A stretch of 64,000 nucleotides of DNA from Candidatus Heimdallarchaeota archaeon (lineage in GTDB: Archaea; Asgardarchaeota; Heimdallarchaeia; Heimdallarchaeales; Heimdallarchaeaceae), in NCBI GenBank assembly GCA_030603365.1, contig JAUVXV010000010.1, forward strand, positions 1-64,000, read 5' to 3'. Position 1 is the stretch's first letter; every line of letters starts with the position of its first letter. The notes beneath the pieces were generated by a model. That model was not told the DNA's origin. It did no database searches and was given only the letters and a program-made list of their open reading frames with translations. This document shows positions 29,684 to 53,075 of this stretch, piece after piece. Made by a program: the position numbers and the translations under genes.

Positions 29684-31210
29684 TCACTTAAGCCATTGAC
29701 CTAAGGGCAGAAAGCATATGTAATGTCGTAGCGGATGGTAGTCTTCAGTTAGTGTGTCTTTTATGTAGTTAAACTTTGGTTTCAATACATATCGAATCAA
29801 CCTCTTCCCAATATTCTTCGCTCCGTTCAGATCTGCGTCTAGTTCGTAGTTGCATTGGTTGCACTTGAACTGTCCTTGTCCTGTACGGGTAGTGTTCATC
29901 GAATTACACCTAGAACATCTTCTAGAGGTCCAACTCTCATTAACAGCTACCACTCGGTAGGATTCAAATCCATGCTTAGCTAGTTGATGTTTCAACCTAG
30001 TGATAAAGTTGCGATAGCACCATTTATGCACTTTTTTTCGCAAAGATTTGTTTCCACTACCTCGACGGTGACGATTCTGTAGATCTTTAGGATAGCCAAC
30101 AGATATAAACAGATTATAGTGTTTCTTCAACTGAAGGATGAAACCAACCAATTGGTTAACTGCATACCCCAATTCTTGTTCAGTAATAGAACGTCGTCGT
30201 CTTCGTAGACGGAAGAGTGTACTATTTAGCTGTTTAGTGTGTTGTCCATTGTTGAGACTATTGTTCAACTTCCTCTGAGTATCTTTGATCTGTCTACTAA
30301 GTTGCCATATTTTCGACTGCCTCTCCTTATCAACGATAAAACGTATTTCATCCATGATTACTCGACCAGTAGAGTTAAGCAATACTGCAACAGCTGTTTT
30401 CTTGATTCCCAAGTCTATTCCTAACACTGCAGGTGTAAGAGTAGATTGATAGCTGGGAACAGAATACTGGAGGGTAAAATTTGCCCACCACTTTCGCTCT
30501 CTGGATTTATAAACTAGTTCTAATATTTTGATATTATCTAGTTCCAGCTTCTTCTCGTGATAAGGTGAAAAAGCTAATGGTAGTCGAAGTTTTTGATGGT
30601 TTCTTTTACCAGATCGTCTAGTATCAAGAGAATCCCTTAATTCTATCCAAAGATGAGCTTCAGCATTTTTAGGTTTATGATATACCTGAAATGTACCTCT
30701 GCTTCCTGTTCCTTTGAAAAAAGTTCGGGGGGTTTTGTTCTTGAAACATGGTTTACCCAGTTCTTTCTTAGAATTGTCTTTTAGTGCTTTCCAGCTTTCG
30801 TAAGTCCAGATAGCTTTGTTTCTGCATTCTTGAAATTCATCTACTGAGCAACGAGGATAACGTTTCTTCAAGTCGTGAGGAACGGATGTTCGTAACTTGT
30901 ATTGCGTATTCTTTGAAGTAGTTAAAGTTAATTCATCCAAGAGGGAAGTATCAACTTTACCGTTCTTTCGCAGAATTCTATCCTCATTGTGGAAGATGAT
31001 GCGCAGGTAGTGTCGAATGATTCTGGTATCTCTTGCGGTTATTCGCTTCAACCTTTCACACTCTCGAACAGACATCAGTTCCGTCTTGATTCTAAGAGAA
31101 ACAGTCTCATAGAATGTAACTAATGGTGCTTGAGGAGTGTTTTTGACTTTTCCATGTGTCTTGTTTGCAGTTTGTAGTTTTTCCTGTTTATTTGTTTCTT
31201 CATTTTTCAT
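29684..31210 (-). CDS. tnpB: TnpB / OrfB_IS605-family RNA-guided nuclease homolog
   Basis: LGIDLGIKKTAV (RuvC-I), SRRCSRCNS...FKCNQCNYELDADLNGAKNI (zinc finger + RuvC-III). Confidence 0.88.
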   Translation of the reverse strand: MKNEETNKQEKLQTANKTHGKVKNTPQAPLVTFYETVSLRIKTELMSVRECERLKRITARDTRIIRHYLRIIFHNEDRILRKNGKVDTSLLDELTLTTSKNTQYKLRTSVPHDLKKRYPRCSVDEFQECRNKAIWTYESWKALKDNSKKELGKPCFKNKTPRTFFKGTGSRGTFQVYHKPKNAEAHLWIELRDSLDTRRSGKRNHQKLRLPLAFSPYHEKKLELDNIKILELVYKSRERKWWANFTLQYSVPSYQSTLTPAVLGIDLGIKKTAVAVLLNSTGRVIMDEIRFIVDKERQSKIWQLSRQIKDTQRKLNNSLNNGQHTKQLNSTLFRLRRRRRSITEQELGYAVNQLVGFILQLKKHYNLFISVGYPKDLQNRHRRGSGNKSLRKKVHKWCYRNFITRLKHQLAKHGFESYRVVAVNESWTSRRCSRCNSMNTTRTGQGQFKCNQCNYELDADLNGAKNIGKRLIRYVLKPKFNYIKDTLTEDYHPLRHYICFLPLGQWLK

Positions 31211-38192: not shown

Positions 38193-40601
38193 TCACGTTA
38201 TTTCCATTTTCAGTAACTGATTAGCTAATTCCCGTTGCGCACAGAGGACGACTTTTTCTTCATTATGAAGTGTTCTTTCCTTCAGTACTTCTTTCAATAA
38301 ATCTTCTAGAGAAGATGATTTTTCCCCAAGTATTGCTTGTTCTATCTCATGTCTGGAGTATCTCTTAATCAGTAGAGAACAAGCATTTCTTGCATTTTTT
38401 CTTATTATTGAGCATTCTTTCTCGTTTTTACTCAACGAACAATAGGTTATACAGACATCATCAGGTTTGAACTTGTGATTAAGAAACGAACTGTTTTGTT
38501 CCTTTGGTTTTTGCCTTTCAGCATTTGTTTTTTTCTCTTTTTGGTAGTTCTTTTTTGAAGTCTGGTTCGACTGAGTAAGTTTGTCGTGAAGAGTTGTTCT
38601 CATTTCTATAAAACTACTAAACAAGAGAGGATAGAGTGAAGAAGAGTATTTTCTTTTAAGAAACAATAGATAGGTCTGATAATCCAAGGGTTTGCAGTTG
38701 AATTCCTTTGTAATTATCTCCAAAGCCTTATTTTCTCCATCTTTCCAGATAAAACAATGACGAATAGGTAGTTGTTGGAGTCGTTCATAATGAAACTCAT
38801 GTAAGTTGAGAGCTTTAGCTAGTTTCTCTGTTTCTTGACCTGAACGAAAAACAATCTTTGTAGAAGAATTAGCATGAACAATATTACTTACATTATGCCA
38901 CATTTGGGTACAGAAGATATGACCAATACCTAAGCTTCTACCTAGCAGAATGTTATTTTCAGCTGTGATCAAAGAAGCCGAACTCTGTGTTCGATAAATT
39001 TTTGGGATAATATTAATCGCTTCTTCTAAAACTAGAACGTAACGAAGCTTATTGGTGAGATCTTTTGCGGCAGCAAACCTATAGAAGAGTTTCAGAATCA
39101 AGTTACAGACAAGATAAATGTCTGAAGGTCTTGCTGCTCTTCGCTGGAATTGGCTGAGATCTAGGATAATAGTCTTCCCTTGATCCATTACATCAAAATT
39201 CAACGTTGTTTGAGACACTCCTAAGATTTCAAAATTACTAGGGTTAAAAATGAAATTCAGTCTATTTAACACAGCATCTAGCGTGTTCTGGATAGTAGTA
39301 ACTCGTTTATTTTTCTTAGCCAAAGTAATAAGGTGCTCTGCAAAAACCTCTAATGTCCTCTTTTCTTCTTTGTGAGTGAGAAAAAGAGCTGTTTCAAAAA
39401 GGTTCTTCATAGATGGACTAAAATTCTGATCAGTAGAAGCAATCATTTCTTCAATAACTAGAAGTGTTCCTCTAACGTCATCCTCATCTTCGGTGTCAAA
39501 GAGATTAACGCAAAGAGGATGTGGACTACCGATAGTAAAGATTTCCACATTGGGTTCTGTAGCAAAAGTCATTGCATATTCTCCTTTAATATCAAAAACC
39601 AAACTTGGCACATTACTATGGATAAGGCTTTGGAGAATACCGCTGACAAATCTTGTCTTCCCTCTCCCTATCATTCCATAGATTTCAACGTTGTAGAGCA
39701 GTTCACCTATACTGATAGAGATTTCATCATCAAGTAATTCATTTATGTATTCGTATCCAAGAAGGATAGATTCTCCTTGCTTGAACACTGTTCTTGGTTT
39801 AGATAGAACAGCTGTAGTTATCTCTTTATAATCTAAAGGAATGTGGAAATACTTTGGTACATCATCAAGTAAAACTATTTCATACTCTTGAACTGAAGAT
39901 GTATTCTGCTTCTTTGACATATTTGTTGCGTTCAAGAATTTCCTGATTGAGAAGTTATCATCAGATAAAGCTGAGAATCTAACGTAAAATTCACCATTAA
40001 TATGTTTCAAGTTTTGAACACTAATCATTAAACTAACATCAGGACAACGTTCAAGAGCTATAGTCTTGTACATCATGTCCATTACATCTATCTCTGTATC
40101 GACCAAAGCAGAGTAATCTAGAGGTATTCTCTTTTTCTTCTTTCTTAGAAAACGAAGAAGAAGTTTAGATTGTTTAGAATTAAGGATATTGAAGTGGCCT
40201 TCATAGTTTGTAGAAAGAGCGTTGGTAACAAGTAGTAATTCTTTTTCTAATTTTTGTAAAATCCTCTTCTTGGAGAAGCCTTGTTTAGAAAGAAGGATGT
40301 AAAGACTCGTTCTCGACTGATATTTGGAGATTACTATCTGGATTTTTTCAACATTCAAAGCAACTAAAGTACTAAAACTGGTATGAATTCCTTCTACTTC
40401 TTCTGAATTGAGTTTAATATTGCAATTAATATGTTTGATAAGTAAAACTACCTTACATCTGTAAAATGGTAGAAGGATTTTTCTCTGTAAAAAAAACTCA
40501 TTGTTTCTGGTTCTGATATAAGGAAACGAAAGAACAAGCAAAAGAATGACAAAAATAGAACTGAACAAGAAAGTTAACAATACTATATCCATAGCTATCA
40601 C
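38193..40601 (-). CDS. Membrane-anchored HerA/VirB4-like (DUF87-type) P-loop ATPase
   Basis: N-terminal TM; Walker A GMIGRGKTR, LVFDIKGEYA, ILDLSQF, Walker B LVLEEAINIIP. Confidence 0.75.
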   Translation of the reverse strand: MIAMDIVLLTFLFSSIFVILLLVLSFPYIRTRNNEFFLQRKILLPFYRCKVVLLIKHINCNIKLNSEEVEGIHTSFSTLVALNVEKIQIVISKYQSRTSLYILLSKQGFSKKRILQKLEKELLLVTNALSTNYEGHFNILNSKQSKLLLRFLRKKKKRIPLDYSALVDTEIDVMDMMYKTIALERCPDVSLMISVQNLKHINGEFYVRFSALSDDNFSIRKFLNATNMSKKQNTSSVQEYEIVLLDDVPKYFHIPLDYKEITTAVLSKPRTVFKQGESILLGYEYINELLDDEISISIGELLYNVEIYGMIGRGKTRFVSGILQSLIHSNVPSLVFDIKGEYAMTFATEPNVEIFTIGSPHPLCVNLFDTEDEDDVRGTLLVIEEMIASTDQNFSPSMKNLFETALFLTHKEEKRTLEVFAEHLITLAKKNKRVTTIQNTLDAVLNRLNFIFNPSNFEILGVSQTTLNFDVMDQGKTIILDLSQFQRRAARPSDIYLVCNLILKLFYRFAAAKDLTNKLRYVLVLEEAINIIPKIYRTQSSASLITAENNILLGRSLGIGHIFCTQMWHNVSNIVHANSSTKIVFRSGQETEKLAKALNLHEFHYERLQQLPIRHCFIWKDGENKALEIITKEFNCKPLDYQTYLLFLKRKYSSSLYPLLFSSFIEMRTTLHDKLTQSNQTSKKNYQKEKKTNAERQKPKEQNSSFLNHKFKPDDVCITYCSLSKNEKECSIIRKNARNACSLLIKRYSRHEIEQAILGEKSSSLEDLLKEVLKERTLHNEEKVVLCAQRELANQLLKMEIT

Positions 40602-42616: not shown

Positions 42617-44206
42617 TTGAAGAGTCTGTTTCTCATGTCTGAAAAAAAGCCTAAATCTAAATCTATTTCAGATTTTCCTGAACTAGTTAAGGAATGGCAT
42701 CCTACAAAAAACGGGGATTTGAAACCTGAGAGCGTTTCTTTTGGTTCTAAAGAAGACATATGGTGGAAATGTCTAGAAGGACCAGATCATGAGTGGTTAA
42801 CTAAACCCAATTATAGAACTGGCGGAAAAAAAATAACAGGATGTCCTTTTTGTGCAGGAAAAAAAGTTTCTGTGACTAACTCTTTGGCTATTAATTTTCC
42901 AGAAATAGCTAAAGAGTGGCATCCAACAAAAAACTTAGGGAAAACCCCAGATGAAGTTCTAATGAAATCAAGTAAAGAAATTTGGTGGCAATGTAGAGTT
43001 AACTCTAAGCATAATTGGGTAGCAAAAGTAAATGACAGAACTGGAGTGAATAAATCAGGATGTCCTTATTGTTCTGGAAGATTGGTTTTGGAAGAAGATT
43101 CTTTAGCTGAATTATATCCAGAAATTATCAAAGAATGGCATCCAACAAAAAATACAAATCTAAATCCAAATGAATTATCCCCAGGTTCAAAGAAAAAGGC
43201 TTATTGGATATGCGATAAAGGACCAGATCATATTTGGAAGGCAGTGATAGACAGCAGAATAAGAGGGAATAGGAAATGCCCCTATTGTGCAAATAAAAAG
43301 GTGTCAGTGACGAATTCATTAGCCACTAAATTTCCAGAAATAGCCAAGGAATGGCATCCTACTATGAATAGAGATCTAACACCAAATAAAGTTGTACCAG
43401 GATCTGATAAATTAATCTGGTGGCAATGTTCTCAAAACTCTGAACATATTTGGGACACCAAAATTCATGAAAGAACTGGATCTAAAAAAACAGGATGTCC
43501 GATATGCTCACATAGAAGATTATCTCCTTATAACTCTCTGAGAACACTCTATCCAGAAATAGCTAAAGAGTGGCATCCAACAAAAAATTCTGGACTAACT
43601 TCAGAGATGGTGATAGGAGGTTCTCACAGAGAGGTATGGTGGAAATGCTCAAAAAATTCTGATCATACATGGATAGCTAAGATAAATAATCGGGTTCATA
43701 ACAAAAGTGGATGTCCATTTTGTAACTTATCTGGTGGTTTGGAAATAATAGGATATTTATGGGAAAGAATATGTCACAGAATTGCCAGATACTTATTGGA
43801 AGGGAAGAAATGGAAATGGCAACCGAAAATTGATACTCCAGAAATAGATGAAAGAAATTGGATATTTCCTGAGATACTTATAGAAAATCTTGATGGAACT
43901 TTAGAAATTATAGAAATAAAAAAATCGCCCTCGGCAATAACAAACAAAGACACATCCATTTATCCACTATATGCGGCTGAAGTAAAATTTTGGTGTCTAT
44001 CTGTTGAATTTTCTGATAATTCGGACTTAGCTGAGAGTTTTGAATTTATCTCAAGCAACGAGTTAGTTCAGCAATTAAAAAACAAGATTAATGAGGAAAA
44101 TAAGAAGGGGATTTATAGGATAATTAAAGATATTGAAAGACTTAAAGATGGAAAATTTTCATCTCAACAAAAACTTCTTACAGATTTTATTTCTATAGAT
44201 GATTAA
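42617..44206 (+). CDS. Five-repeat DUF4379-like zinc-ribbon protein with C-terminal nuclease-like domain
   Basis: Five PEIxKEWHPTKN...WWxC...H.W...GCPxC repeats; C-terminal PEILIENLDGTLEIIEIKKS (ExK). Confidence 0.75.
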   Translation: MKSLFLMSEKKPKSKSISDFPELVKEWHPTKNGDLKPESVSFGSKEDIWWKCLEGPDHEWLTKPNYRTGGKKITGCPFCAGKKVSVTNSLAINFPEIAKEWHPTKNLGKTPDEVLMKSSKEIWWQCRVNSKHNWVAKVNDRTGVNKSGCPYCSGRLVLEEDSLAELYPEIIKEWHPTKNTNLNPNELSPGSKKKAYWICDKGPDHIWKAVIDSRIRGNRKCPYCANKKVSVTNSLATKFPEIAKEWHPTMNRDLTPNKVVPGSDKLIWWQCSQNSEHIWDTKIHERTGSKKTGCPICSHRRLSPYNSLRTLYPEIAKEWHPTKNSGLTSEMVIGGSHREVWWKCSKNSDHTWIAKINNRVHNKSGCPFCNLSGGLEIIGYLWERICHRIARYLLEGKKWKWQPKIDTPEIDERNWIFPEILIENLDGTLEIIEIKKSPSAITNKDTSIYPLYAAEVKFWCLSVEFSDNSDLAESFEFISSNELVQQLKNKINEENKKGIYRIIKDIERLKDGKFSSQQKLLTDFISIDD

Positions 44207-47530: not shown

Positions 47531-47737
47531 TCAATGTGGATGCAACTTCATATTTCCTTCTTTATCGATAATTGCACCAGCATGTCTTAACGCCCAACAA
47601 GAAATAACCACTCCCACAGGCAAACTTGCGGGATGTCGAGCTGCGAATTCCATATGAACATCTAACACTGAAGGTCCTTCACCTAAACTAATGGCACCAA
47701 TTTCTAACTTATTCAAGATTTCAATAAGATTTTTCAA
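47531..47737 (-). pseudogene. Duplicate 3'-end fragment of fumarase alpha
   Basis: LNKLEIGAISLGEGPSVLDVHMEFAARHPASLPVGVVISCWALRHAGAIIDKEGNMKLHPH, ~56/61 aa identical to the C-terminus of 48505-49389. Confidence 0.92.
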
Positions 47738-47743
47738 GTAAAA

Positions 47744-48412
47744 TTATTTCTTCATTCTCAAGATATTATTTCTCTTTCTATTGTAGAAGTAAGAGATTAC
47801 AAATAAAATTGGAAGAAGAACTGAAAATAAAGGAATAGCCTTGAGTTTAAAGGGATTTTCATTGAAAGAGATTTCAGAACCATTATCAGAAATTTCTAGA
47901 GATATTCTTGCTGGAGCTATTATCTCCTCATAGATACTAGCTTTCCATTCACCAATAGTAATTTCATACAGTCCTTTTGGAAGCTCTGTTATAGTAGGAT
48001 CATATATAAAAAATTGAGCAGATGCCCACGAAATAGTTTGACCAGGAGGAAAAGTTAAGGAGACACAGGCCAGAGTACAAATTTCACCTCCATTTTTAGT
48101 CTCTAAACTTTTATTCTGCAAATTGCATTTGACTGAAGAATCCCATAAACATCCATCACCAAATCCTATAATGATATCAGTTAAGTAGATGTTAGTAATA
48201 GTCAAGTCTATAGAGAACTTAAAATTGACTGAATCTTCAAACTGACCCCAAAGATGCCAAGATAAAGAAGAAGGTGTTAAACTAAGCACATTGGTCATTT
48301 CAGATTCATCAGTATTAGAAATAACAGTTTCAGACAAACTACTGATAACAAGGAAAATAGAAAATAGAGGAATAAATAACTGTCTCTTCTTCATTAGATT
48401 TCTAGTAAACAT
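47744..48412 (-). CDS. Secreted/membrane-anchored hypothetical protein lying between fumarase alpha and its tail duplicate
   Basis: Signal peptide and C-terminal TM (LFSVLLPILFVISYFYNRKR). Confidence 0.6.
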   Translation of the reverse strand: MFTRNLMKKRQLFIPLFSIFLVISSLSETVISNTDESEMTNVLSLTPSSLSWHLWGQFEDSVNFKFSIDLTITNIYLTDIIIGFGDGCLWDSSVKCNLQNKSLETKNGGEICTLACVSLTFPPGQTISWASAQFFIYDPTITELPKGLYEITIGEWKASIYEEIIAPARISLEISDNGSEISFNENPFKLKAIPLFSVLLPILFVISYFYNRKRNNILRMKK

Positions 48413-48504: not shown

Positions 48505-49389
48505 TTAGTGGGGATGCAACTCCACATTTCCTTCTTTATCAATAGTTGCTCCAGCATGTCTTAAAGCCCAACATGAAATAACTACTCCAACAGGCAAACT
48601 CGCTGGATGTCGAGCAGCGAATTCCATATGAACATCTAAAACTGATGGTCCTTCACCTAGACCCATTGCTCCTATTTCCAGTTTGTTTAAGATACTCAAA
48701 AGTTCTTTTTCAATTGAAGCAATACTTTCATCTTCATGGTACTTAAATAATGGTCGTAAAAGAGCCTTCTTTGCTAGGTTCATACACATATCTTCTCCTC
48801 CACCAACACCCACACCAACTGTATAAGGAGGACATGCGAGCGGACCAGCAGCAGCAACTGCTTCTACAACAAATTCTTTTACACCTTTGATACCTTTACC
48901 AGGAGGAACCATTTTCATTTTACCCACATTTGATGATCCTCCACCCTTAGGCATGGCAATGATTTCACATTTATCTCCCTCTACTAAATCGAAATAAAAC
49001 CATGGAACATATCCGCGGATACCAACGTTATTATTGGTGTTTCCTTTAAACATATCAACTGCATTAGGTCTTAATGGAACCTTTTCTGTTGCTCTCTTTG
49101 TTGCTTTGATCAGAGCTGTTTTAATCTCTGATTTTAGTGGAAACTTATCTCCTACTTTCACAAAGAAAGAAACAAGCCCAGTATCTTGGCACATAGGTTT
49201 GATTTCACTTTCTGCAATTCGAACATTTTCATTAATTGCATGTAATTGTGATTTACCTAAAGCTCCTTCTGTTGTATTTTCACTTTTTATTAAAACCTCT
49301 TTAACTTCAGTTGGTAGTTCAGTAGCAGCCAATTTTAACAATCCTACAGCTGTATCTTCTATTACTTGTGCTATATCCTTCATTATCAT
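48505..49389 (-). CDS. fumA: Class I fumarate hydratase alpha (N-terminal domain) subunit
   Basis: CQDTGLVSFFVKVG, GNTNNNVGIRGYVPW, MPKGGGSSNVGKMKM, GVGVGGGEDMCMNLAKKALLRPL. Confidence 0.9.
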   Translation of the reverse strand: MIMKDIAQVIEDTAVGLLKLAATELPTEVKEVLIKSENTTEGALGKSQLHAINENVRIAESEIKPMCQDTGLVSFFVKVGDKFPLKSEIKTALIKATKRATEKVPLRPNAVDMFKGNTNNNVGIRGYVPWFYFDLVEGDKCEIIAMPKGGGSSNVGKMKMVPPGKGIKGVKEFVVEAVAAAGPLACPPYTVGVGVGGGEDMCMNLAKKALLRPLFKYHEDESIASIEKELLSILNKLEIGAMGLGEGPSVLDVHMEFAARHPASLPVGVVISCWALRHAGATIDKEGNVELHPH

Positions 49390-49560
49390 CACAATTCCTG
49401 TAAAATTTTCTCTTTATTAGCTTCAATATTCTTTTTTGATTCTTCTGTTAAATTTCCACCATGTGTGTCAATTGTTATTGTCAAAGGACCAAATTCTTCT
49501 ACTTCGTAGACCCAGAAACATTCGGTTGAATGCATGTGTTTCACAGAAATAATTTGATTT
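49389..49560 (-). pseudogene. Duplicate 3'-end fragment of fumarase beta
   Basis: ...VKHMHSTECFWVYEVEEFGPLTITIDTHGGNLTEESKKNIEANKEKILQEL* matches the C-terminus of 52479-53075; stop overlaps the fumA start. Confidence 0.9.
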
Positions 49561-49635
49561 AAAATCTTGTGTTATATACTTATACTTATTTTGTAAAATC
49601 AAACGTAGTTATTGGAAGTTTAGGAGATAAATGCA

Positions 49636-52353
49636 TCAAATATCATTCCAATTTGAAACTATATAATCCCAGGTTTCTTCTAAAGCTATCTCAGGTGTGG
49701 AGTCAAGCACTTCCTTCCATATTTGAAATTGAATGTCTTCTACCAATTTATTAAATAAATTATTTTGTATAGGTAGGATAAATGTCCTATTAATCTCTTT
49801 TCTAATAGTCCACTTATCAACACCATATTTTGTTCCAAAACCTAAAAGAACTTCTCTCCAATCTCCATTACCTGTATAGTCAAATTGAACTTGTTTGTCA
49901 ACAACACGAATTCTAAACCCATTTCGAGGTTCAATAGAACTAGGTAAAAAAAACGACCAGTCATCTATTGTTTGGATATATTCTAGTATCCATGAAAAAA
50001 GAGTTGCCCAGACTTCTTTAAATTCAAATACTATTGCAAAAAGAAGTTTGATGTTAAAATCTCCTTCAGAATTTCTAAAATTATAGTTTGTTTTTAGAAA
50101 ATTTACTGGTTCTACAGGAATACCGGACTGAATAAGTCGTTTCTTCCAAGCATCAACTATCTGATTAGAGCTACTGAATTCAACTCCTCTTACATTGATT
50201 TTAAAAGGAAATTGTAAAAGCATTTTACTTAAAGATTCATTAGTTTTAAAAAATTGATTCAAATTCAATTTAACGCCAAACCAAGGTAATCTACCATTAA
50301 ACCCTACAACTTCAACTGGGGATATTGTTTTTCGATCAAAGAAAATTATAGGTTTAATTAATTTTGATTTATGATTTAGATTAAATCCATCTGGTACTTT
50401 ATAAGGTGGTTCTAAATCTCTTAATATTTTTTGTATCCAATTTGGATTATTTAAATAATGTTGCCAAATTTCTTTTTCACATTCAACATTTACACTATCA
50501 CTAACTAAGAGATCTCCAAAGAATTTAGCTTTCAATTTACTCCAACCACTAAAGAAATCAGATCCTTCTGTTATGCGATTTCTTTTGAAAATTTTTTCAA
50601 GTGAATAAGAACATTCCCAATGTTGATGAAATTTATAGGGTACTACACATTTGCTTTCGAAATTTTTGTCTAGTTTTTTAAATGTTTTTTGACCGAAATT
50701 ATTTAGGGTTTCTAGACAATGAAACATCGTCCCACAATTAAAAACTGAAAATTCTTCAATAATTTTCCTTTGGCTAAGAATCATAATTTCATAGTAGATA
50801 GTTCTTTGCATTTCATTAATCTTTTTAACTATTTCAAGTTCAGACATACCATCATGAATCAAACAAGGAGAGAGTTTATCCAGAGCTCCTTTCAAAATTG
50901 AATTCAGCATTGAATAGGTTGGGTATTTATCAGATGATTTTTTACCAGATTTTATCATGTCTTGAAGATTTGTATTAAAACAATCTAGAGATAATCTTAT
51001 TGTTCCATCTTTCGTTTTTACAAAGATTGGCAAAAATACATCTCGATGTATTTTGATTGATATAAATCTATTATTGTTATAACTTGTTCTAGTTTTTACT
51101 TTAAGTTCTATTTCTTGAACAGCTTCATCTGCAACGGTGAAATATCCGTTTTTTGTTACTAATTTATGTGCATTACCATGTTGAATTAAGGAAATTAATT
51201 GGTTTTGCTTTATAGCTCCCTTCAATATTCTATTAATTGTAATTTGAGAAAGCCCTGAATCTATCAGAACATTTCGTAAATTTCCTGATTTAATTTTTTT
51301 ATTAAAGTTGAAACCCACACCAGAAGTTGTGAATAAATATTTCTTTCTTAAAGCATCCACCAAATCATTTGCTTTCTTGAAACCAATCTTTAAATGGATA
51401 AGTTCCACATGTTTTGCTTTCAAAAATGAATCAATATCATCAAATATTTGTGTAGTAAATTTGATATTCTTACTTGTTCTAATATAGTCAAAAAAACCCC
51501 CCAAATCCTCCCCTACTTTCATTTCAACAATCTTAAGATCATACTTTGCAGATTTTCCTTTTCCAATTACTCCTAAAATAATGTCATCGAACCCATTGGA
51601 ACTGGAAAACTTACCTTTTAATCCTCTAATTAATATTTTATCTAGTTTTAATGAAACCCCATTGATATTCCAAAACCGCCGCATTTCATCTTTTTCGAAA
51701 TTTAATTTAATTTGAGCTTTTAGAAAACTCTCAGCTGTATGAGTACTTGTAATTCCTTTAACACCATATTTAGTCAATAGTACTCTTACATATGAATCAG
51801 ATTCTGAAGGTTCAAGAGGTGTCGAAAATTGTTTCAGATCTAGAGAATCAGAGGTTCTTTGATACTTTTGACAATTTCCATTTTTTGAATCATTATAATC
51901 CTTCAAAAAATGAATTCCAAGCTCATTTACATTTCTTTCTCCATATTGATTTAAAGGACCAAAAACCTTGTTGAGGTTTTCAGAATCATTAATGAGAGAA
52001 TTTACCCAATTATCGTAATTACTTTCTGGTTTTCCATGTAGATCGTTTATATCATTCCTAAGACGATTTGAATATTCAATACTCTCATTTAGGTGTGAAA
52101 TTAGAATCTTCTTAAACTGATTTTCGTTCTCCGTCAGATTATTTTGTATAACAAATCTACTCCTTACAAAATTTGAATTATCTTGTTTCATAGTTTCCAT
52201 ACTGAAATCCAAACTATCTTTATTTTGAGCAATTAACTTTGTTATTTGTTTTTTTATTTGCTTAATTGTTTTTAATTCATCTTCTATTTTCTTAAACAAA
52301 TTATCAGATTCTAGCTGTTTGTGAGCTTTGTTTTCATTTATTCTTGTATTCAT
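49636..52353 (-). CDS. Unknown 905-aa protein with PD-(D/E)XK-like motif, inserted between fumB and its tail duplicate
   Basis: N-terminal coiled coil; GFDDIILGVIGKGKSAKYDLKIVEMKVG (D...ExK); no other recognised family. Confidence 0.6.
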   Translation of the reverse strand: MNTRINENKAHKQLESDNLFKKIEDELKTIKQIKKQITKLIAQNKDSLDFSMETMKQDNSNFVRSRFVIQNNLTENENQFKKILISHLNESIEYSNRLRNDINDLHGKPESNYDNWVNSLINDSENLNKVFGPLNQYGERNVNELGIHFLKDYNDSKNGNCQKYQRTSDSLDLKQFSTPLEPSESDSYVRVLLTKYGVKGITSTHTAESFLKAQIKLNFEKDEMRRFWNINGVSLKLDKILIRGLKGKFSSSNGFDDIILGVIGKGKSAKYDLKIVEMKVGEDLGGFFDYIRTSKNIKFTTQIFDDIDSFLKAKHVELIHLKIGFKKANDLVDALRKKYLFTTSGVGFNFNKKIKSGNLRNVLIDSGLSQITINRILKGAIKQNQLISLIQHGNAHKLVTKNGYFTVADEAVQEIELKVKTRTSYNNNRFISIKIHRDVFLPIFVKTKDGTIRLSLDCFNTNLQDMIKSGKKSSDKYPTYSMLNSILKGALDKLSPCLIHDGMSELEIVKKINEMQRTIYYEIMILSQRKIIEEFSVFNCGTMFHCLETLNNFGQKTFKKLDKNFESKCVVPYKFHQHWECSYSLEKIFKRNRITEGSDFFSGWSKLKAKFFGDLLVSDSVNVECEKEIWQHYLNNPNWIQKILRDLEPPYKVPDGFNLNHKSKLIKPIIFFDRKTISPVEVVGFNGRLPWFGVKLNLNQFFKTNESLSKMLLQFPFKINVRGVEFSSSNQIVDAWKKRLIQSGIPVEPVNFLKTNYNFRNSEGDFNIKLLFAIVFEFKEVWATLFSWILEYIQTIDDWSFFLPSSIEPRNGFRIRVVDKQVQFDYTGNGDWREVLLGFGTKYGVDKWTIRKEINRTFILPIQNNLFNKLVEDIQFQIWKEVLDSTPEIALEETWDYIVSNWNDI

Positions 52354-52478
52354 GATGATAACTTCATATTATAATGCTAAAAATGATTTAAAAACTCATG
52401 AAAAAACATATAACTAAGTAAAAGTGGAAAAAGGGGTTAAGATTTAGAAATCTTAGTGAAAAAACCAAAATTATTTTT

Positions 52479-53075
52479 TTACAAGTTTTGTATAATTTTA
52501 TTTTTGTTCTCTTCTATCTTCTTTTTGCTTTTTTCAGTCATATTACCACCATGGGTATCAATTGTTATAGTTAAAGGACCAAAGTTTTCTACATCGAAGA
52601 GCCAAAGCGATTCGGGCATTCCCAACTCCTCAAACCAAAAAACGTCCTTGACTTTCTTTATTCTATTTGCTGCGAGTAGTGCAGCACCTCCTGTAAAGTA
52701 ACCATAAATGCATGTTTCCTCTTGGCATGCTTTTGTAGTTCTTTCTCCCATACCACCTTTACCTATGATGATACCTGGCTGGAAAACTCTAATGAATTCA
52801 TCTTGGAAAATTTCCATTCTTGCTGAAGTTGTTGGTCCTGCTGCAACAACAATCCATTCACCTTCTTCATTCTTCTTCATGACTGGACCGCAGTGGAAAA
52901 GACCAATCCCTTTGAAATCTACGGGAGGTTTTTCTCCTTTTTTATGCAGTTCCAATGCTTTTAGATGAGCCTCATCCCGAGCAGTTACAACCGTCCCTGT
53001 GAGATACACAATATCCCCAATAGATATTTTCTTCAAATCTTCTGGGGGAATTGGAGTAGTCAAATGATATTCCAT
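52479..53075 (-). CDS. fumB: Class I fumarate hydratase beta (C-terminal domain) subunit
   Basis: GDIVYLTGTVVTARDEAH, LFHCGPVMK, AAGPTTSARME, IIGKGGM, TIDTHGGNM. Confidence 0.9.
   Translation of the reverse strand: MEYHLTTPIPPEDLKKISIGDIVYLTGTVVTARDEAHLKALELHKKGEKPPVDFKGIGLFHCGPVMKKNEEGEWIVVAAGPTTSARMEIFQDEFIRVFQPGIIIGKGGMGERTTKACQEETCIYGYFTGGAALLAANRIKKVKDVFWFEELGMPESLWLFDVENFGPLTITIDTHGGNMTEKSKKKIEENKNKIIQNL

Follow-up and report, generated by a model that had tools for sequence, protein, structure and literature searches.

The DNA analysed here (the window, 64,000 nucleotides) lies on contig C3 of genome G000, which comprises 3.65 Mb in 17 contigs. On the minus strand it carries fumB, coding for the C-terminal or beta part of a class I fumarase (52479..53075; Pfam Fumerase_C, 2.7e-43), followed by a 905-aa open reading frame termed X905 (49636..52353), a second copy of the fumB 3' end (49389..49544) and fumA, coding for the N-terminal or alpha part (48505..49392; Pfam Fumerase, 8e-84). 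The original prediction had described an intact fumB, a 905-aa gene and a fumB tail copy in front of fumA, and all three elements were confirmed at these positions. It had also claimed that the stop codon of the tail copy overlaps the fumA start, and the overlap was found to be TGATG. The tail copy is real and in frame, with a reading frame from GTG 49544 or ATG 49535 to the stop at 49391-49389, but its start had been placed at 49560, whereas homology begins at about 49523. The onset of homology falls on the ..P-E-C/S-L-W codons, where the Ser156 codon of fumB occupies 52610-52608 and the Cys codon of the displaced copy, which reads E-C-F-W, occupies 49520-49518. The two tails of the window are 77% identical at the nucleotide level. 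The copy matches fumB residues 140-198 in tblastn (E = 5e-16), and the identical gene order in independent MAGs rules against both chance similarity and an assembly error.

A second 3' duplication, absent from the original prediction, lies downstream of fumA on the same strand. Here a 68-aa copy of the fumA C-terminus (47531..47737; Pfam Fumerase, 3.4e-14; 88% aa identity) stands behind a 222-aa open reading frame, Y222 (47744..48412), that is not a relative of X905. In nucleotide comparison both fumA tail copies of the window resemble G019, and this duplication is probably an older one internal to the lineage. Elsewhere the window codes for a TnpB-like protein of 508 aa with a zinc finger and a DADLNGAKN motif recognised by eye (29684-31210), and for a protein of 529 aa that contains five zinc-finger repeats of the treble-clef type (42617-44206; DUF4379, 4.6e-95).

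We searched the fumA protein in 57 genomes, relatives included, and read the surroundings of the matches. In relatives that lack X905, fumB lies immediately next to fumA, as had been supposed with the assumption of an ancestral fumB-fumA operon. This arrangement was seen in 11 genomes of the same genus (G004, G006, G009, G011, G012, G014, G015, G017, G018, G019 and G020) as well as in G021 and G022, which represent other genera of the same family, and judged from this comparison it is the ancestral order. X905 was found in seven genomes, all of one genus, namely that of the window and G010, G003, G001, G008, G007 and G015. The X905 proteins share 47-97% aa identity, the one of the window being 82% identical to that of G010 and 47-55% to the other five. 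Every orthologue is located at fumB and has a copy of the fumB tail downstream of it, and the insertion always falls on one and the same codon of the GMPECLW motif, which is conserved. It has to be considered that X905 and the tail copy are on separate contigs in G001, that X905 is split across two contig ends in G007 and that the filled allele of G015 makes up a contig of 3.3 kb. No further X905 orthologues were found among the remainder of 228 genomes from the phylum, only distant paralogues with 22-29% identity in this genus and in G022.

The two fumB tails of a carrier have different relatives. For nucleotide identities we defined the body as codons 1-150 and the tail as the last 40 codons. 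The bodies of G010 and G007 are 97% identical, whereas their X905 proteins share just 55%. The G010 body is also 94-95% identical to G011, G020 and G015, and its displaced tail matches the same three genomes at 90-92%. In contrast, its own tail shares 89% with that of the window, compared with 80% between the two bodies, and only 68% with its own displaced tail. The own tail of G007 is nearest to G003 and G001 (83 and 81%), while G015 matches its displaced tail at 96%. Likewise, G003 and G001 have bodies with 90-94% identity to G006, G009 and G018, own tails that match each other (91%) and then G007, and displaced tails that reach 88-94% to G014 and G009. The displaced tail of the window is 83% identical to the native tails of G020 and G017. 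Nucleotide alignment of the two tails, which had been suggested for mapping the crossover, placed it at the GMPECLW codons and told the native from the foreign tail, and in the tail tree native and displaced tails were split from cassette tails with a support of 92. A tandem duplication of the fum operon with subsequent decay, to which X905 would be unrelated, could also leave two tails, and G002, in which fumA is present twice together with a fumB tail, indicates that such events occur here. However, the two tails within one carrier are only 65-77% identical, the displaced one is up to 96% identical to native tails of other species, and a decayed duplicate from within the genome would not yield tails that track the X905 tree. 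We regard this origin as scarcely credible.

Topology tests (AU) with six carriers pointed in the same direction. The X905 data rejected the body topology (p = 7e-70), the body data rejected the X905 topology (p = 6e-4) and the own-tail data rejected the body topology (p = 5e-4). Displaced tails favoured the body topology, with a p-AU of 0.91 against 0.09 for the X905 topology, which was not formally excluded. In a comparison across 20 genomes the own tails rejected the body tree with a delta lnL of 148, and displaced tails standing for the carriers also did so, to a lesser degree (delta lnL 71); native tails carry small mosaics near the site. On the evidence of these trees X905 and the own tails share one history and the fumB body has another, with the displaced tails leaning towards the body tree. 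Since the tail and X905 trees agree and the body tree differs, we conclude that tail and X905 travel horizontally as one cassette. The fumB gene of the window is, by the same comparisons, a chimera of a host body (codons 1 to approximately 155) and a cassette-borne, recoded tail (52479..52613, minus strand) that starts at GMPE-Ser(TCG)-LW. The earlier proposal that fumB had remained intact and that its old tail had stayed attached to fumA was thereby upheld, as the displaced tail is the native one and the present tail of fumB arrived with the insert. A single ancestral insertion with vertical inheritance is contradicted by the topology tests, and from the host and cassette trees we infer at least four insertions at one point of fumB. 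The history of insertion, displaced native tail and incoming foreign tail is thus firmly supported by sequence comparison.

The junctions were resolved most directly in the G015 MAG, which contains near-isogenic empty (C371) and filled (C483) alleles together. This pair differs by 2 mismatches in 149 nt to the left of the site and is 94% identical over 52 nt to the right, from GAATGCT on, and on either side similarity is lost no more than about 10 nt from the site. In 30-nt windows, identity to host relatives is maintained until about nt 451-480 of fumB, where it falls. The absence of a co-converted flank in separate insertions would fit a break at the site itself, as ordinary recombination should leave longer tracts.

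Phage 21 and e14 are known to insert at the 3' end of a housekeeping gene, icd of E. coli, where they supply a new tail and displace the old one. These are multi-gene prophages that use an integrase and an att core. The original prediction had drawn this analogy, and with regard to the architecture it holds, as do the regenerated gene and the fixed crossover point that a site-specific integration of this type would produce; a circle with core, new tail and X905 would then have been integrated by X905 or by a recombinase acting in trans. The mechanism does not carry over, however. The fumB insert is a single open reading frame of unknown family, X905 has no match to a recombinase or integrase family, and the junctions of the filled G015 allele (GAATCACTCTGG versus GAATGCTTATGG) have only GAAT in common before mismatches set in, without an identical att core of useful length. 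We therefore consider site-specific integration improbable.

The cassette, composed of the recoded tail, X905 and a 3' spacer, has a recurrent anatomy. An AT-rich spacer precedes X905 and is alike within each cassette type. Comparison of the 3' spacers across carriers revealed a TTTAAA or similar run and an in-frame start a few codons before the displaced tail, which is ATG in six of the seven carriers and TTG in G010. In the window this spacer (49524..49635, minus strand) contains a TATA-like TTTTAAA (about 49564-49558) and an in-frame ATG (49535-49533). Differences between displaced and native tails are mainly synonymous in most carriers, G010 being an exception; for the window we counted 16 synonymous versus 2-3 nonsynonymous codon differences from the G020 and G017 native tails. 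From this we infer that the displaced tail may be translated and aid the expression of fumA.

The cassette tail is altered at the point of insertion. In non-carriers codon 156 lies in GMPE-C-LW, with Cys encoded by TGT or TGC in 13 of the 14 copies compared across genus and family, and Cys was also found at the site in eight of nine sequences at the level of the order. All seven carriers read GMPE-S-LW with Ser encoded by TCA or TCG, so that their own tails have a Ser in place of the Cys codon (TGY to TCN) and synonymous changes at the site in addition. The displaced tails have kept GA(A/G)TGY, with homology starting exactly there, in 6/7 carriers, and in G010 homology starts three codons later. 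The pairing of Ser with X905 gave a Fisher p of 7e-5, which is inflated because the carriers have a common cassette ancestry. Exceptions are one genome of a different family with an AGT Ser codon and G011, which has Ser without X905. At codons ~154-168 of its fumB (L039) G011 carries a cassette-type patch of ~35 nt that takes in the Ser codon, and the remainder of its tail is native. It is plausible, though inferred, that this patch is a conversion scar or a resistance allele.

The nature of X905 itself could not be derived from known families. No credible match was obtained in Pfam, NCBIfam, PHROGs, PADLOC or PDB sequences and profiles, and no LAGLIDADG or GIY-YIG domain was detected with Pfam up to E = 5. 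The AF2 models were poor, with a pLDDT of 43 for the full protein and 46 for residues 185-400. Sequence comparison with homologues revealed a GFDD(I/V)...E-x-K motif, at residues 254-279 of the window protein, that is kept in 9/10 homologues covering the region, including paralogues at 24-29% identity, and is degenerate in the G022 copy. We take GFDD...E-x-K to be the pattern of PD-(D/E)XK nucleases. On the basis of this motif and the insertion pattern we infer that X905 is a site-specific nuclease; this reading has no family or fold support, and cleavage is likewise inferred. The length of X905, which is unusually great for a homing endonuclease, counts against it. A further X-like domain with GFDD...E-x-K forms the C-terminus of a 2979-aa open reading frame with hydrophobic segments and an open 5' end in G006 (L075, C25:1-8937), where it may be the effector portion of a surface protein of giant size.

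Taken together, we consider it rather probable that X905 and the recoded fumB tail form one mobile cassette which spreads by double-strand-break homing, with the nuclease role of X905 and the cleavage being inferred. In fumB alleles that are still empty, X905 would cut at the conserved site GGNATGCCNGARTGY. Repair of the break from a carrier allele, in which the fumB body serves as the left arm and the native tail together with fumA as the right one, would then copy the cassette in. The cassette tail would restore the fumB reading frame, its altered codons would make the new allele uncuttable, and the promoter-like sequence and ATG of the spacer would keep the part consisting of displaced tail and fumA expressed. 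A distant X paralogue may act likewise on a second housekeeping gene, fhs.

X905 could instead be a passenger with some other role that does not drive its own spread. It would have been inserted once by chance, in a break repair that was homologous on one side and illegitimate on the other and copied related DNA, and its later spread would be owed to DNA uptake followed by ordinary homologous recombination. This does not sit well with one identical fumB point in all carriers although host and cassette trees differ, nor with native flanks right up to the site on both sides, where ordinary recombination should drag longer tracts. The main argument in its favour comes from fhs, the gene for formate-tetrahydrofolate ligase, where ordinary genes are found in the same kind of tail duplication. 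Copies of the fhs tail with varying break points enclose NosD/beta-helix genes in G000 and G011, a P-type ATPase and a beta-lactamase in G005, an SBP_bac_5 gene in G006 and an ABC transporter in G010. Moreover, a segment of ~1.96 kb with the SBP_bac_5 gene and an fhs-tail scar is 95% identical at the nucleotide level between the G006 fhs locus and the fumB insert of G003; because of this identity, we conclude that cargo moves between the fumB and fhs sites. The duplications at fumA-Y222 and in G002 also lack X, and together with the ordinary genes at fhs they imply that tail duplication does not need X. On the other hand, a member of the X family is present at this second, unrelated target gene, and we consider a passive role of X905 unlikely, without being able to dismiss it.

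The family member at fhs was found in the search for the gene beside other 3'-end duplications that the original prediction had proposed. In G010 fhs is followed by an X-paralogue fragment, the ABC transporter and a 287-aa copy of the fhs C-terminus, and the fhs gene of G016 has an X paralogue of 868 aa facing its 3' end. The G010 fhs gene tracks that of G011 to about codon 280 and then diverges where the displaced copy begins, and that copy is 92% identical to G011. By this comparison G010 fhs is a chimera of the same type as fumB, and fhs appears as a second target of a distant X paralogue. The orientation of the X gene at fumB is opposite to that at fhs, which also speaks against site-specific integration. 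Besides, several related arrangements were noted. The G003 segment (L040 4326-6284) contains the SBP_bac_5 gene and a 15-codon fhs-tail scar, and outside the window fhs of G000 is followed by a NosD/beta-helix gene in convergent orientation and then, one after the other, by fhs tail copies of about 103 and 24 aa (G000:C3:87707-93688, L110). A HerA-type ATPase in the window (38193-40601) resembles one located by an fhs fragment in G008 (L116 6151-8091). In G002 (L032, C76) fumB-fumA is followed by a prenyltransferase-like gene, a 301-aa open reading frame, a fumB tail and a second fumA that is 89% identical to the first at the nucleotide level, with no X. A cassette-type pattern was looked for in this duplication and in the fumA copy of the window and was not clearly shown. 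In G001 an X-like pseudogene faces an N-terminal fragment of hypD (L078, C102:2467-3226); hypD as a third target remained unresolved, since an intact hypD is present at another place in G001 and no more than the N-terminal fragment lies beside the pseudogene. No general excess of tail duplications was found in 476 kb sampled from G000, where fumB, fumA and fhs were the only housekeeping genes affected and other matches look like paralogous families.

Returning to homing, we suggest only tentatively that X905 founds a new class of large Asgard homing nucleases. Such enzymes would be directed at conserved motifs in metabolic housekeeping genes (fumB, fhs and perhaps others) and would be accompanied by recoded rescue tails, and their cut sites would double as entry points for cargo such as transporters, beta-lactamase and surface proteins.

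Similar C-terminal replacements were described for mORFs of fungal mitochondria in atp6, atp9, cox2 and nad3 of Glomus (PMC3630166), and this source also cites work on a C-terminal-replacing mORF in the atp6 gene of Allomyces macrogynus. As in the fumB cassette, a foreign tail is fused in frame, an open reading frame lies behind it and the native tail is displaced downstream; native tails group with relatives and inserted tails do not. In contrast, fungal mORFs encode LAGLIDADG or GIY-YIG endonucleases in mitochondrial DNA, while X905 has ~900 aa, no family match and a place on an archaeal chromosome, and only the fumB cassette lies in an operon in which the displaced tail is open in frame into the downstream gene. 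By analogy, the fungal mORFs are the closest known counterpart, closer than e14 in icd, and X905 would work like them without being a member of the LAGLIDADG or GIY-YIG families. Synthetic home-and-rescue (HomeR) gene drives are inserted in a needed gene and restore its function with a recoded 3' end (PMC7968924). HomeR relies on engineered Cas9, whereas the fumB cassette is natural; its rescue tail is likewise altered at the putative target site, and its nuclease role is inferred only. Of a drive-like conversion of empty alleles, the sequences display merely the outcome, repeated insertion at one site. Mobile elements of Heimdallarchaeum have been reported as HeimM2, which has a homing-endonuclease homologue, and as aloposons (PMC8813620). 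Like X905 they are mobile elements of Heimdall archaea, the X side including the giant open reading frame with an X domain in G006, but their reported insertions are at tRNA or rRNA genes without replacement of a protein-gene tail. In the literature searched, which did not cover most subscription journals, we found no report of an element like the fumB cassette in archaea.

Selfish nuclease genes are mostly found in introns, inteins and intergenic gaps, as hits in needed genes do harm, and the cassette would avoid this harm by bringing a replacement gene end. It would be the natural equivalent of engineered rescue elements, down to an allele in G011 that may confer resistance. With empty and filled alleles in one MAG the invasion could be followed directly. 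Moreover, the cassette reveals repeated gene flow between Asgard species, and trees of fumB, as well as of fhs, mix two histories inside one gene. As X905 lies outside known families, cleavage activity could define a new nuclease class.
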